Shown one piece after another: positions 7,637 through 11,678 of a DNA stretch of 41,618 bases. The notes beneath the pieces are model-generated. The model ran no database searches. It was not told the origin of the DNA and worked only from the letters and a program-made list of their open reading frames with translations. How positions within the stretch are numbered: the first letter of the stretch is position 1; every line of letters begins with the position of its first letter. Source of the DNA: Candidatus Tayloriibacteriota bacterium (GTDB lineage: Bacteria; Patescibacteriota; Minisyncoccia; Phycocordibacterales; CAIRYW01); the NCBI GenBank assembly GCA_029288615.1, contig JARIGV010000010.1, positions 1 to 41,618 of the forward strand, given 5' to 3'. Made by a program: the position numbers and the translations under genes.

Positions 7637-9952
7637 ATGAAAAATATCTTGAAAAAAATAGCGCAGTACGTGGTACTTGCCATCCCGTTTACTTCTTTTA
7701 TTGTTGCTACGAATATGTTTTTCCCATTCATTACGGGAAAGGCATTCTTCTTCCGCACTGCTGTTGAGATAGCGCTCGGCCTCACCTTGGCTCTTATGGT
7801 CTATGACCCGTCTGTACGCCCAAAGAAATCTATTCTTCTTTGGTGCTTTGTTGCTTTCACAGCAATTATTTTTGTCGCTGACATCTTCTCACTTGATCCT
7901 GCTCGCGCTCTGTGGAGCAATTTCGAGCGTATGGAAGGCTTCGTTACTCTCGCACATCTTTTTGCATACTTTCTTGTCCTCATCACTCTTTTCCGAGAAA
8001 AGAAAGATTGGAATATGTTTTTCTATGTTTCCGTTACCGCATCATATTTCCTCATGCTCTATGGTCTTCTTCAGTTTTATCGTGAGATTGCAATCAACCA
8101 AAGCTCTGACCGAGTTGATGGCACTTTAGGAAATGCTGCGTACTATGCGATCTATCTCGTTTTCCAGATTTTTATTTTCGCGCTCTTGTGGTGGCGAAGC
8201 CGAGGATCATATAAAGGTATTGCAAATGCTGCTGCGGCAGGACTCCTTACTTTTGTTGGCTATTATCTCTGGCATGTTAGCGATCCATTTATTCCATCAG
8301 GATCACATGGAATCACTCTAAGTATTCTTTCATTCGCAATTGCTGTATTTCTTCTTGTATACCAGAGATCATCAAATGAGAAAGCAAAACAGAAAATTGC
8401 TCACGTGCTTTTTGGAGCAGGAATTTTCCTCAATGCTTTTCTTCTTTATTTTACTGAAACACGAGGTGCGATTTTAGGATTTATTGGAGGTCTTATTCTT
8501 GCGTCTCTCTATATTCTTTTTACACATCGAGAAAATAAAATTGTACGAAAAGGAGCGATCATTACACTGTCTGTCATTGCTCTTATTGTCATTGGATTCC
8601 TCTCAGTAAAAAATCTTCCTGCAGTAAAGAATGACCCGGTACTTGGGCGATTTGCATCGATCTCATGGAATGAAACAAAAGATCAGGCGCGTTCATATGT
8701 CTGGCCAATGGCATTCAAAGGAATTGCAGAAAAACCGATCCTTGGTTGGGGACAGGAAGGATTCATGTATATCTTCGATAAATATTACAATCCAGCAATG
8801 TGGGGACAGGAGCCATGGTTTGATCGTGCTCACAACTCTTTCATCGACTGGACAGTTGCAGGAGGAATTCTCGGAGGGCTCGCATACATTTCTCTTTTTG
8901 TTGCAGCACTCTATCTTATTTTCAAGAAAAAAGATTTTGATGTCTTCGAGAAAGCGATTCTTTTTGGACTCCTTGGTGCGTATGCTTTCAACAATATCTT
9001 CGTATTCGATAACCTAGTAAGTTATATATTCTTCTTTGCTATCCTTGCGATGGTCGGCGGAGAATCACTTGAAAGAGATCCAGTTCGTGAGAAAAGAGAT
9101 CAGGAGAGTCCACATATGCTCGCGGCAATTATTCTTGTTCTTACTGTTGTACTTATCTACGTTGTGAATGCGAATCCTTTTCTTCAAAACATCACTTTGC
9201 TTCAAGCGCTTTCAGTTGCTGGTGTACAGGATGGCAACATTGTTTCATGTGCGAGCGCATCGTATCAGCGCGATTACGCAACGGGAAATTACAAACAAAT
9301 ATGTAATTCATGGTACCCAACATCAGATCTCTTCCTTAAAGCACTTTCGTACAACTCGTTTGGTAACAGTGAAGTAAGAGAACATTTCACCGATGTCTCA
9401 ACTCAGGTCAATGCACAGTCTACTATCTCAAATGACATCAAATCAAAATTCGCGCAGGCGGTCATTGCACAGTTTGATGGACAGGCGAACGAGACACCTC
9501 ATCAGTCACGTCCATTCCTTTACATGGGTTCATACCTGACATCTATCGGAATGCCAGATCAGGCTCTCTCATATCTTGCGAAAGCAAATTCTCTTTCGCC
9601 ACAAAAACAGCAGATTCTCTTTGCAATTGGCCAGGCTTATATTGCAAAGGACGATGTCGTAAAAGCCAATGAATATTTCAAGCAAGCTTACGATGAGGCG
9701 CCGACATACCCAGACGCTGAGGCTTTCTACGCAATTTCATCACTTGCGGTAAGAGACAACACAACGGCAAATAAAATTATTGCTGATCTTGTATCGCAAG
9801 ATATTGCTGATGCTCGTATTGCATCGACGCTTATTTCAGCAGGAAGAAAATCTGATGCTATCGATTATGTAAACAGAGTTCTCGCAAAAGACCCACAAAA
9901 CGCGAATGCAAAGAATCTCCTCTCCCAAATTACAGGCACAACAACACAATAG
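7637..9952 (+). CDS. O-antigen ligase/polymerase-like membrane protein with TPRs
   Basis: This 771-residue protein has about a dozen hydrophobic segments in the first ~500 residues, starting with VVLAIPFTSFIVATNMFFPF. A Wzy_C/WaaL-type core follows: YFTETRGAILGFIGGL, then a large extracytoplasmic loop with GWGQEGFMYIFDKYY and RAHNSFIDWTVAGGILG, where the catalytic Arg/His of this superfamily lie. After the last helices comes an extracellular tail of tetratricopeptide-like helices (YLAKANSLSPQKQQILFAIG and on to the C-terminus). Such proteins join or polymerise undecaprenyl-linked glycans; some act on proteins. ATG 7637 is chosen because it opens the first membrane helix. A TATAGCAT stretch sits just upstream at 7622-7629. 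The gene is divergent from gmd. Confidence 0.85.
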   Translation: MKNILKKIAQYVVLAIPFTSFIVATNMFFPFITGKAFFFRTAVEIALGLTLALMVYDPSVRPKKSILLWCFVAFTAIIFVADIFSLDPARALWSNFERMEGFVTLAHLFAYFLVLITLFREKKDWNMFFYVSVTASYFLMLYGLLQFYREIAINQSSDRVDGTLGNAAYYAIYLVFQIFIFALLWWRSRGSYKGIANAAAAGLLTFVGYYLWHVSDPFIPSGSHGITLSILSFAIAVFLLVYQRSSNEKAKQKIAHVLFGAGIFLNAFLLYFTETRGAILGFIGGLILASLYILFTHRENKIVRKGAIITLSVIALIVIGFLSVKNLPAVKNDPVLGRFASISWNETKDQARSYVWPMAFKGIAEKPILGWGQEGFMYIFDKYYNPAMWGQEPWFDRAHNSFIDWTVAGGILGGLAYISLFVAALYLIFKKKDFDVFEKAILFGLLGAYAFNNIFVFDNLVSYIFFFAILAMVGGESLERDPVREKRDQESPHMLAAIILVLTVVLIYVVNANPFLQNITLLQALSVAGVQDGNIVSCASASYQRDYATGNYKQICNSWYPTSDLFLKALSYNSFGNSEVREHFTDVSTQVNAQSTISNDIKSKFAQAVIAQFDGQANETPHQSRPFLYMGSYLTSIGMPDQALSYLAKANSLSPQKQQILFAIGQAYIAKDDVVKANEYFKQAYDEAPTYPDAEAFYAISSLAVRDNTTANKIIADLVSQDIADARIASTLISAGRKSDAIDYVNRVLAKDPQNANAKNLLSQITGTTTQ

Positions 9953-9953
9953 C

Positions 9954-9982
9954 TTGACTTTTTCCTTGTAATCTGCTATTAT
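9954..9982 (+). promoter_or_regulatory. Sigma-70 promoter of ncRNA
   Basis: TTGACT (9954-9959), a 17-nt spacer and TATTAT (9977-9982) make a near-consensus promoter just past the stop of the upstream gene. Transcription should start at about 9989-9991. Confidence 0.85.
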
Positions 9983-9989
9983 CCTTTTA

Positions 9990-10235
9990 TGTGAGACAGC
10001 TTTTATTAGCTTGCTCAACAAAGTAAACATCCGCAAAACCTGGCTCCGGCCGGGTTTTGTGTTTTTTGTAGAAGAGGCTATCATACTGTGTATGTTCTTG
10101 CCTTAAAGCAAGAGCGTTCCGTCTCTTCACGGCCAGCGACTGCACTCACATAAGATGTTTACTTTGGAGCTAGCACCCGCTGGCCCTGCAGGGATAGAAT
10201 ATAAAGGCGGATCATATCCGCCTTTTCTTTTTTTT
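9990..10235 (+). ncRNA. Structured ncRNA with pseudoknot, unassigned family
   Basis: This RNA of about 240 nt is bounded by a strong promoter and an intrinsic terminator and has no plausible ORF. A perfect 13-bp helix joins 10019-10031 to 10154-10166. Inside it are a GC-rich hairpin at 10032-10061, a stem 10071-10076/10123-10128 enclosing two small hairpins (10082-10094 and 10095-10114), and a single strand GGCCAGCG (10131-10138). This strand is perfectly complementary to CGCTGGCC (10178-10185) outside the long helix, which makes a pseudoknot. I see no signatures of RNase P, tmRNA, SRP RNA or 6S RNA. It could be a trans-acting RNA, a riboswitch-like leader of murB, or an unrecognised member of a known family. 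Confidence 0.75.
10203..10235 (+). terminator. Intrinsic terminator of ncRNA
   Basis: A perfect 10-bp stem (10203-10212 with 10216-10225) with a 3-nt loop is followed by a long T tract ending at 10235. It stops 9 nt before murB, so murB would be transcribed only by read-through or from a promoter I cannot see. Confidence 0.9.
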
Positions 10236-10243
10236 GCTTTTAT

Positions 10244-11275
10244 ATGATTACTATCGAAGAAAACATTTCATTTAAAAAACTTTCAACACTCAAAACTGGT
10301 GGGGCGGCACGTTTTCTTGCGCATATAAAAAATAGCGAAGAACTTTCCGAGGCTCTCTCTTTTGCAGAAGAAAAGGACATTCCAGTTTTTGTAATAGGAG
10401 GGGGTTCAAATATTTTACCGCCTGATGAAGGATTTTCTGGCCTTGTGATAAAGATGGAGAATAAAGGAATTCAATATAAATATGAAGAAGAGGTCGCTTA
10501 TGTTTCGGTAGAAGCAGGAGAGATCTGGGATGATTTTGTTGAGAAGTCTGTAATAGAAAATTTGTGGGGCCTTGAAAATCTTTCAGCAATTCCTGGCACT
10601 GTTGGAGCGTCTGCTGTACAAAATATCGGAGCGTATGGAAGAGAAGTGAAGGATGTTATTTTTTCTGTCGATGTGTTTGATAGTGTGGATAAAAAAATAA
10701 AAACTCTCACTAATTCAGAGTGTCTTTTTTCATATCGCGACAGCATCTTTAAAAAAGAAGAAGGTAAAAAATTTATTGTAACAAAGGTGATATATAAACT
10801 TTCTCGCATACCTTGGCCTGAGCTTTCGTATAAAGATCTTAAAAATTTCTTTGGTGAGAAAATGCCAACACTCCGCGAAATACGAGACGCTGTTACCGCA
10901 ATACGCGCGAAGAAATTTCCAGATCTTAAAGTGTGTGGTACGGCTGGATCATTTTTTAAAAATATTCTTCTCACTACAGAAGAGTTTTCAGCTTTCAGTG
11001 TGAAATATCCGGACGCAGTTTCATTTGATGCAGAAAACGGAATGAAAAAAATTTCCTCAGCATGGATTCTCGATAAAGTACTTCAGATGAAAGGTGTGAG
11101 AGAAGGTGATGTGGGACTTTTTGAAAATCAGCCACTTGTTCTTGTGAATTTTGGAAATGCGAGCGCGACAGATGTAAAAAATTTTGCTGAGAAAATAAAA
11201 AATAAAGTGAAAGAAAAAACTAATCTTTCGATCGAAGAAGAAGTTGTTGTGATAGAAAATAATTTCAAAAAATAG
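10244..11275 (+). CDS. murB: UDP-N-acetylenolpyruvoylglucosamine reductase
   Basis: This 343-residue flavoenzyme reduces UDP-GlcNAc-enolpyruvate to UDP-MurNAc in cytoplasmic peptidoglycan synthesis. Matching motifs are the FAD-domain entry LSTLKTGGAARFL, the pyrophosphate loop VIGGGSNIL, and NLSAIPGTVGASAVQNIGAYG. SYRDSIFK carries the Tyr of type I (E. coli-like) MurB. The active-site Ser lies in CGTAGSFFKNI. The length matches the type I family. The ATG lies 9 nt after the ncRNA terminator, with no Shine-Dalgarno sequence and no -10 at the spacing seen elsewhere in this window. Its expression may therefore depend on read-through from the ncRNA. Confidence 0.97.
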   Translation: MITIEENISFKKLSTLKTGGAARFLAHIKNSEELSEALSFAEEKDIPVFVIGGGSNILPPDEGFSGLVIKMENKGIQYKYEEEVAYVSVEAGEIWDDFVEKSVIENLWGLENLSAIPGTVGASAVQNIGAYGREVKDVIFSVDVFDSVDKKIKTLTNSECLFSYRDSIFKKEEGKKFIVTKVIYKLSRIPWPELSYKDLKNFFGEKMPTLREIRDAVTAIRAKKFPDLKVCGTAGSFFKNILLTTEEFSAFSVKYPDAVSFDAENGMKKISSAWILDKVLQMKGVREGDVGLFENQPLVLVNFGNASATDVKNFAEKIKNKVKEKTNLSIEEEVVVIENNFKK

Positions 11276-11339
11276 TTTCAATATTTTTTTTTAGAAAATT
11301 TTCTTTGCAAAGTTATCCACACTTTTCCGTCTCTATGTA

Positions 11340-11368
11340 TTGTGTTTGCGCGTGCATCGACAGATAAT
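11340..11368 (+). promoter_or_regulatory. Promoter of lysine-rich peptide gene
   Basis: TTGTGT (11340-11345), a 17-nt spacer and GATAAT (11363-11368) form a moderate sigma-70 promoter. It would give a 5' leader of about 110 nt, unusually long for this window. Confidence 0.5.
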
Positions 11369-11379
11369 ATAAGTGCACG

Positions 11380-11412
11380 TTAGAAAATCTTTTTGGTCAG
11401 GAGATTTTCTAA
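11380..11412 (+). promoter_or_regulatory. Hairpin in 5' leader of lysine-rich peptide gene
   Basis: A perfect 10-bp inverted repeat (11380-11389 with 11403-11412) with a 13-nt loop lies at the 5' end of the predicted leader. It has no T tract, so it is not a terminator. It may protect the RNA end or regulate translation. Confidence 0.5.
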
Positions 11413-11484
11413 AAACTTAAAAGTAAATCTTTCGTTCTTTCTTCACTGAATTTTCATAAGAGAAATAACGAAACAAAAAATACA

Positions 11485-11565
11485 ATGGCAGCAAAGAAAA
11501 AGGCTAAGAAAGCTAAGAAGACAACAAAGAAGTCTTCAAAGAAAGCTTCAAAGAAGAGAGTTTAA
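11485..11565 (+). CDS. 26-residue lysine-rich peptide, histone H1-tail-like
   Basis: This tiny ORF encodes MAAKKKAKKAKKTTKKSSKK plus six further residues: 13 of 26 are Lys, with Ala, Ser, Thr, one Arg and a terminal Val. It has its own predicted promoter, a leader with a hairpin, and a strong terminator 19 nt after the stop, which is why I believe it is a gene. The composition is that of histone H1-like or AlgP-like tails, so binding to DNA or RNA in the nucleoid is the natural guess. It could also be a remnant of a longer protein, but the flanking signals argue for an intact unit. Confidence 0.7.
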   Translation: MAAKKKAKKAKKTTKKSSKKASKKRV

Positions 11566-11584
11566 TCCTCTTCGTTCCACTTAC

Positions 11585-11620
11585 AAAAATTCCCGCAGAA
11601 ATGCGGGAATTTTTGTTTTT
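11585..11620 (+). terminator. Intrinsic terminator after lysine-rich peptide gene
   Basis: A perfect 13-bp stem (11585-11597 with 11602-11614) is closed by a GAAA tetraloop. It ends in a T run followed by GTTTTT, and the 5' A run makes it potentially bidirectional. Confidence 0.92.
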
Positions 11621-11678
11621 AGGGACATACATTTTAGGACGTTTTTTTCAGGAATAAAATATGGTAGAGTGGTCTCCT

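Follow-up and report, generated by a model that had tools for sequence, protein, structure and literature searches.

A conserved locus upstream of murB in Patescibacteria apparently encodes two undescribed small RNAs that pair in trans

What does the stretch immediately upstream of murB (UDP-N-acetylenolpyruvoylglucosamine reductase; 10244-11275, PF01565 and PF02873) encode, and how would its product act? The window, that is, the whole 41,618 nucleotides analysed, is contig C21 of its own 98.8%-complete genome (G000), and the initial annotation read positions 9954-10235 as a single pseudoknotted RNA with its own promoter and terminator. Our answer is that this stretch is a conserved, structured, non-coding locus encoding two small RNAs, which we call A and B; all features given below lie on the plus strand. 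All of the elements first described are present at the positions given. The promoter TTGACT-N17-TATTAT at 9954-9982 agrees with the consensus in 10/12 positions and has TG before the -10, a hairpin at 10203-10225 followed by a T tract forms the terminator, and the complementarity does exceed chance, the minimum free energy of the region being -103.5 kcal/mol against -68.4 +/- 4.6 in 200 shuffles (z = -7.6). CAAAGTAAACATC at 10019-10031 is exactly complementary to GATGTTTACTTTG at 10154-10166, as is GGCCAGCG at 10131-10138 to CGCTGGCC at 10178-10185. A second strong terminator, with 13 pairs at 10032-10061 followed by TTTTTT, had been overlooked. This internal terminator closes off one RNA ahead of the next and so divides the stretch in two. 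The supposed 13-bp closing helix does not close one RNA; it is the linker of A paired with the loop of B. The supposed crossing 8-bp helix likewise pairs exactly as described, not as a pseudoknot but as RNA B's own stem.

RNA B is about 90-100 nt in length; its core (10113-10201) is a long hairpin with a conserved apical loop, followed by an intrinsic terminator (10203-10233 with its T tract). It is matched in the window by two covariance models, R1 (84.3 bits, E 1.4e-20) and the wider R2 (81.3 bits, E 9.8e-20), and across relatives the hairpin is built around GCACTCACA ... TTTGGAG. The covariation on which the initial structural claim depended was found: within the order, 21/29 pairs of the hairpin show compensatory changes, including 7/8 pairs of the main stem (5' arm 10131-10138, partner 10178-10185), and in other orders all pairs of this stem vary with compensation. 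In the independent other-order set, 92.1% of cells pair and the covariation score is 0.810 versus 0.221 for shuffled alignments, falling to about 0.2 when the partner is slid by one column. While the stem varies freely, the loop, GCACUCACA...UGGAG, is nearly invariant. In the window the loop spans 10145-10169 and reads CUCACA ... GAUGUUUACUUUG ... UGGAG, where CUCACA and UGGAG form B's own clamp (its pairs are 96% formed in the other-order set) and both parts are also able to pair with RNA A; with B folded alone, the loop is predicted to be unpaired at 0.52, against an RNA B average of 0.30. Model matches on the antisense strand of RNA B reflect its palindromic stem. A TATAAT-like -10 stands just before RNA B in most relatives; in the window, a possible weak promoter, TTGTGT-16-TATCAT, can be read at 10057-10084, and it is uncertain, scoring no better than shuffles.

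RNA A is predicted to be about 77 nt long (9991-10067, from covariance model R3 and the predicted fold). Its promoter at 9954-9982 has an extended -10 (TGC), and the unit continues with a predicted 5' hairpin, H1 (9990-10020), whose 5' arm contains GUGAG, a 13-nt linker (10019-10031) that is the exact complement of 10154-10166 and co-varies with B in relatives, and an intrinsic terminator (10032-10067, 13-pair stem and T6) that is also found in nearly all of 50 relatives. R3 is a model of RNA A alone, built without reference to B, and it matches the window at 9952-10065, promoter included, with 68.6 bits. Among the 50 relatives, 6-9 nt separate the end of the -10 from GTGAG (6-8 nt in 49/50), which places the predicted 5' end at GUGAG or 1-2 bases earlier. 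The order promoter, GTGAG, hairpin, linker, terminator holds in about 30 loci that were read, and a hairpin like H1, whose upper stem varies, can be drawn for relatives. When RNA A is folded alone, its linker is predicted to be unpaired at 0.65, against an average of 0.36. A leaderless small peptide starting at the 5' GUG was considered and rejected, the frames not being conserved in four sequences read by eye.

The conservation that the initial annotation presupposed is present. When 98 genomes, nearly all from the same order, were searched at the DNA level, the stretch recurred, chiefly its 3' half, with significant relatives in about 30 same-order genomes. R1 places RNA B, mostly as a single copy, in at least 220 of the 397 genomes of the window's order, and R2 adds at least about 80 genomes of other orders in the same class; these tallies are lower bounds, with 11 candidates per genome scored in the large searches. 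Judged by the names of the genome records, the carriers are Ca. Taylorbacteria, Zambryskibacteria, Yonathbacteria and other Parcubacteria. The distribution of RNA B is patchy, since 25 same-order genomes without a match stayed negative with fuller scoring. The sole match outside the class (G309, E 0.0026) has neither the core nor any A and was taken as a false positive. RNA A tends to occur with RNA B: R3 found it in 37/47 other-order loci that had been fetched only for B (one of these, L049, was in the R3 training set), and a further copy was read by eye in L179. Strong A matches occur in 10/12 genomes with B versus 2/21 without B (Fisher p = 4e-5; p = 0.004 with the R3 training genomes left out). 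The R3 search gave no A in G050 and G054 despite their B, and A stands without a detected B in G038 and G058, congeners of which have B. The pair is class-wide in Parcubacteria-type Patescibacteria.

Are A and B parts of one transcription unit or separate genes? Most loci have A upstream of B on the same strand, commonly in the order O-antigen-ligase/TPR gene, A, B, murB, secA. The two lie on opposite strands in L007, L009, L028, L052, L060 and L071 and in 9/33 class-level pairs; with A located by the covariance model R3 alone, they are on different contigs in G056 and G089 and are separated by about 250 kb in G446 and by 1.9 kb in G063. Because the arrangement varies from same strand to opposite strand to unlinked while the complementarity co-evolves, we regard A and B as separate genes that would pair in trans. 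As side observations on gene order, murB and B are encoded on opposite strands in L121, L123, L134, L141, L144 and L147, and A is also strand-opposed to B in L123, L134, L141 and L147; murB therefore stays near the pair even in these rearranged class-level modules. Between murB and secA, the window (11276-11660) holds a very short open frame rich in lysine (MAAKKKAKKAKKTTKKSSKKASKKRV), and a hairpin resembling a terminator comes after it.

The co-evolution was judged on the intermolecular helix by permutation tests, as indels in the linker require a joint alignment. Across 50 cognate pairs of A linker and B loop, the mean was -13.6 kcal/mol versus -9.1 for mismatched pairs, and 0/10,000 permutations were as good; in this set every A has a promoter and was picked partly by complementarity among the GTGAG sites near B. 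A further 37 pairs, whose A was found by R3 only, averaged -14.3 versus -8.8 kcal/mol for mismatched partners (0/20,000 permutations), and they are free of that selection bias because the model made no reference to B. The contact (A/B) is CAAAGUAAACAUC/GAUGUUUACUUUG in the window, UCAACAAAUACCAUU/AAUGGUAUUUGUUGG in L019, CAUCAUCAUCA/UGAUGUAUGAUG in L122, AAAAUAAGUGCCU/AGGCACUUAUGUU in L047 and CAAUAUAUGUGCC/GGCACAUAUGUUG in G089. A second contact, helix 1, between the 5' end of A and CUCAC of B is nearly invariant, so its covariation support comes from two related genomes (L119 and L124), which have AUGAG in A and CUCAU in B. In L134, GGAAU of B stands opposite AUUCC of A, replacing GGAG and CUCC. 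In the complete genome G089, the one genome scanned in this way, the B loop scores -20.9 for the A linker versus -17.6 for the best of 669 gene starts. RNA A thus shows what is expected of a trans-encoded base-pairing small RNA, namely its own promoter and terminator, a separate gene and, by the permutation tests, conserved covarying complementarity, and trans pairing of A and B is strongly supported by these comparisons.

We propose that A and B are separately made small RNAs that bind in trans, and that A is a dedicated antisense-type partner controlling B. We put the probability of this reading at roughly two in three; the two conserved RNA genes, their co-evolving complementarity and their location in trans are established at the sequence level. 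In the proposed mechanism, the linker of A would pair with the loop of B over about 8-15 bp, the 5' end of A (UGUGAG) would pair with CUCACA of B, and GGAG of B could pair with the CUCC or CCCU that many species have at the base of the A hairpin. In many species the closing pairs of the A hairpin are of the GAG/CUC type. Since the clamps of both RNAs use complementary halves, A may swap partners and open the clamp of B by strand exchange, whereupon the linker would zip up the B loop between the two clamp contacts; such partner swapping would explain why the clamp letters hardly change. In this way A would determine how active or stable B is, or how it is processed; that control runs from A to B is an assumption. 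Where B forms the 5' UTR of murB, A would tune murB, and elsewhere B would act as a free RNA. As the linker is not fixed but changes in step with B, A is unlikely to have many further targets.

A different possibility is that neither RNA regulates the other, and that A and B together make up one bipartite functional RNA, probably protein-bound and class-wide, with a conserved clamp-exchange core. If true, the complex would be a split non-coding RNA without a described counterpart. Across the class, the two RNAs occur together, mostly in one copy each, and evolve together, the pair survives unlinking from murB and of A from B, and the B loop (with GCACUCACA and UGGAG) is more invariant than pairing with the linker requires. 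However, invariance of the clamp is also expected if each half has to find a complement in its own RNA as well as in the other one, no protein partner is known, and the many same-order genomes without B (25 of them re-tested) argue that the complex is not essential everywhere. We treat this reading as tentative, with the odds distinctly against it.

The link to murB leads to a further explanation, in which B is a murB leader, A a small RNA acting in trans on murB translation or read-through, and murB regulation the whole function; gating of murB by read-through had already been suggested for the window. In many same-order loci the murB AUG follows RNA B after only about 0-45 nt, so that B must serve as the murB 5' UTR there, unless cut off, and the spacing leaves scant room for another promoter. 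Measured from the closing helix of B, the AUG often comes 0-20 nt downstream. RNA B abuts murB also in distant families of the class (L119, L120, L124, L126, L131, L135, L145 and L177), and in L016 the AUG lies within the 3' arm of B. Yet a cis-acting murB leader should always be on the murB transcript, whereas murB is not adjacent in about 19/60 loci, where B is usually terminator-ended and the A-B complementarity is kept. The complete genome G089 carries murB, A and B at three unlinked sites. Because the pair persists there with murB elsewhere, gating cannot be the whole function, and we consider the murB-only explanation unlikely. Control of murB by B, including read-through in the window, is possible as a local role. 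Separately, this genome may have an antiterminator between B and murB: 10116-10123 (GUUCCGUC, the 5' arm of the B closing helix) could base-pair with GGCGGAUC, the terminator arm at 10206-10213, with a single mismatch.

Two readings as a single, known or new, RNA fare far worse. The one first proposed, a single RNA with an internal pseudoknot, draws on the adjacency of A and B on one strand of the window and on the energy of their joint fold (-103.5 kcal/mol); it is contradicted by the strong terminator between them, by the promoter that each RNA has to itself in most relatives, by loci with the two genes on opposite strands, and by unlinked copies of A and B that have stayed complementary, and is thus highly improbable. 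The last reading concerns the housekeeping RNAs. The Rfam 15 search gave no match in the window at the gathering threshold and none close at relaxed E, as the initial annotation had anticipated in calling the RNA a candidate new one, and no match in the loci of ten relatives. RNase P RNA and tmRNA were rightly excluded, both lying elsewhere in the window's own genome: tmRNA (RF00023) on C14 with 112 bits, and RNase P RNA (RF00010) at C27:12652-13005 with 95 bits against the Rfam cut-off of 100, a diverged form. The Rfam model of SRP RNA (RF00169) found nothing in this genome, nor was the Ffh M domain (PF02978) found there, while it is present in 14/14 control genomes; the lineage may be without a signal recognition particle, and a replacement of SRP RNA was dropped as a candidate. 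The 6S RNA model (RF00013) also gave no match in this genome, in what is a weak search, as the control was positive in only 8/14 genomes. A diverged housekeeping RNA is thus the least probable reading of all, although the Rfam models find neither SRP RNA nor 6S RNA in the genome, as nothing here matches Rfam, tmRNA and RNase P RNA lie elsewhere, the Ffh M domain is missing as well, and a two-RNA architecture fits none of the four.

Knowledge of non-coding RNA in Patescibacteria is very sparse. No description of the A-B pair was found in Rfam or the open literature, and, from sequence comparison, A and B apparently form an undescribed, class-wide small-RNA pair whose members recognise each other in trans. 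This would mean that a dedicated RNA-RNA pair is kept across a whole class of ultra-small Patescibacteria with streamlined genomes. It points to a further regulatory layer near cell-wall and secretion genes, and the co-evolving contacts in hundreds of species offer a natural data set for RNA-RNA recognition in trans.

How does A, as a dedicated partner controlling B, compare with known systems? First, OxyS-fhlA is a trans-encoded base-pairing small RNA system with loop-loop contacts (PMC2946933). The likeness is that a short RNA ending in a terminator would bind, in trans, two brief segments of a structured RNA, possibly an mRNA leader; unlike fhlA, B stands by itself in many genomes as a conserved hairpin RNA, A and B co-evolve one-to-one, their gene linkage is usually kept, and the pair has no known chaperone. 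Second, the sponge pair SroC-GcvB is similar in that one non-coding RNA is bound by another. In such pairs the small-RNA seed is held by many mRNA targets, whereas the seed of A drifts with B, which suggests that B is its main partner. Third, crRNA and tracrRNA are likewise two RNAs joined by a duplex, there of repeat and anti-repeat; the A-B duplex instead forms in a hairpin loop, and neither a Cas gene nor a repeat array was noticed at the loci that were read. Finally, RNAI-RNAII and CopA-CopT are dedicated pairs with a kissing-type initial contact, as we propose for A and B. Those pairs are cis-encoded and fully complementary, whereas A and B come from separate genes, and their complementarity is made up of two or three blocks with about 15-25 bases in all.
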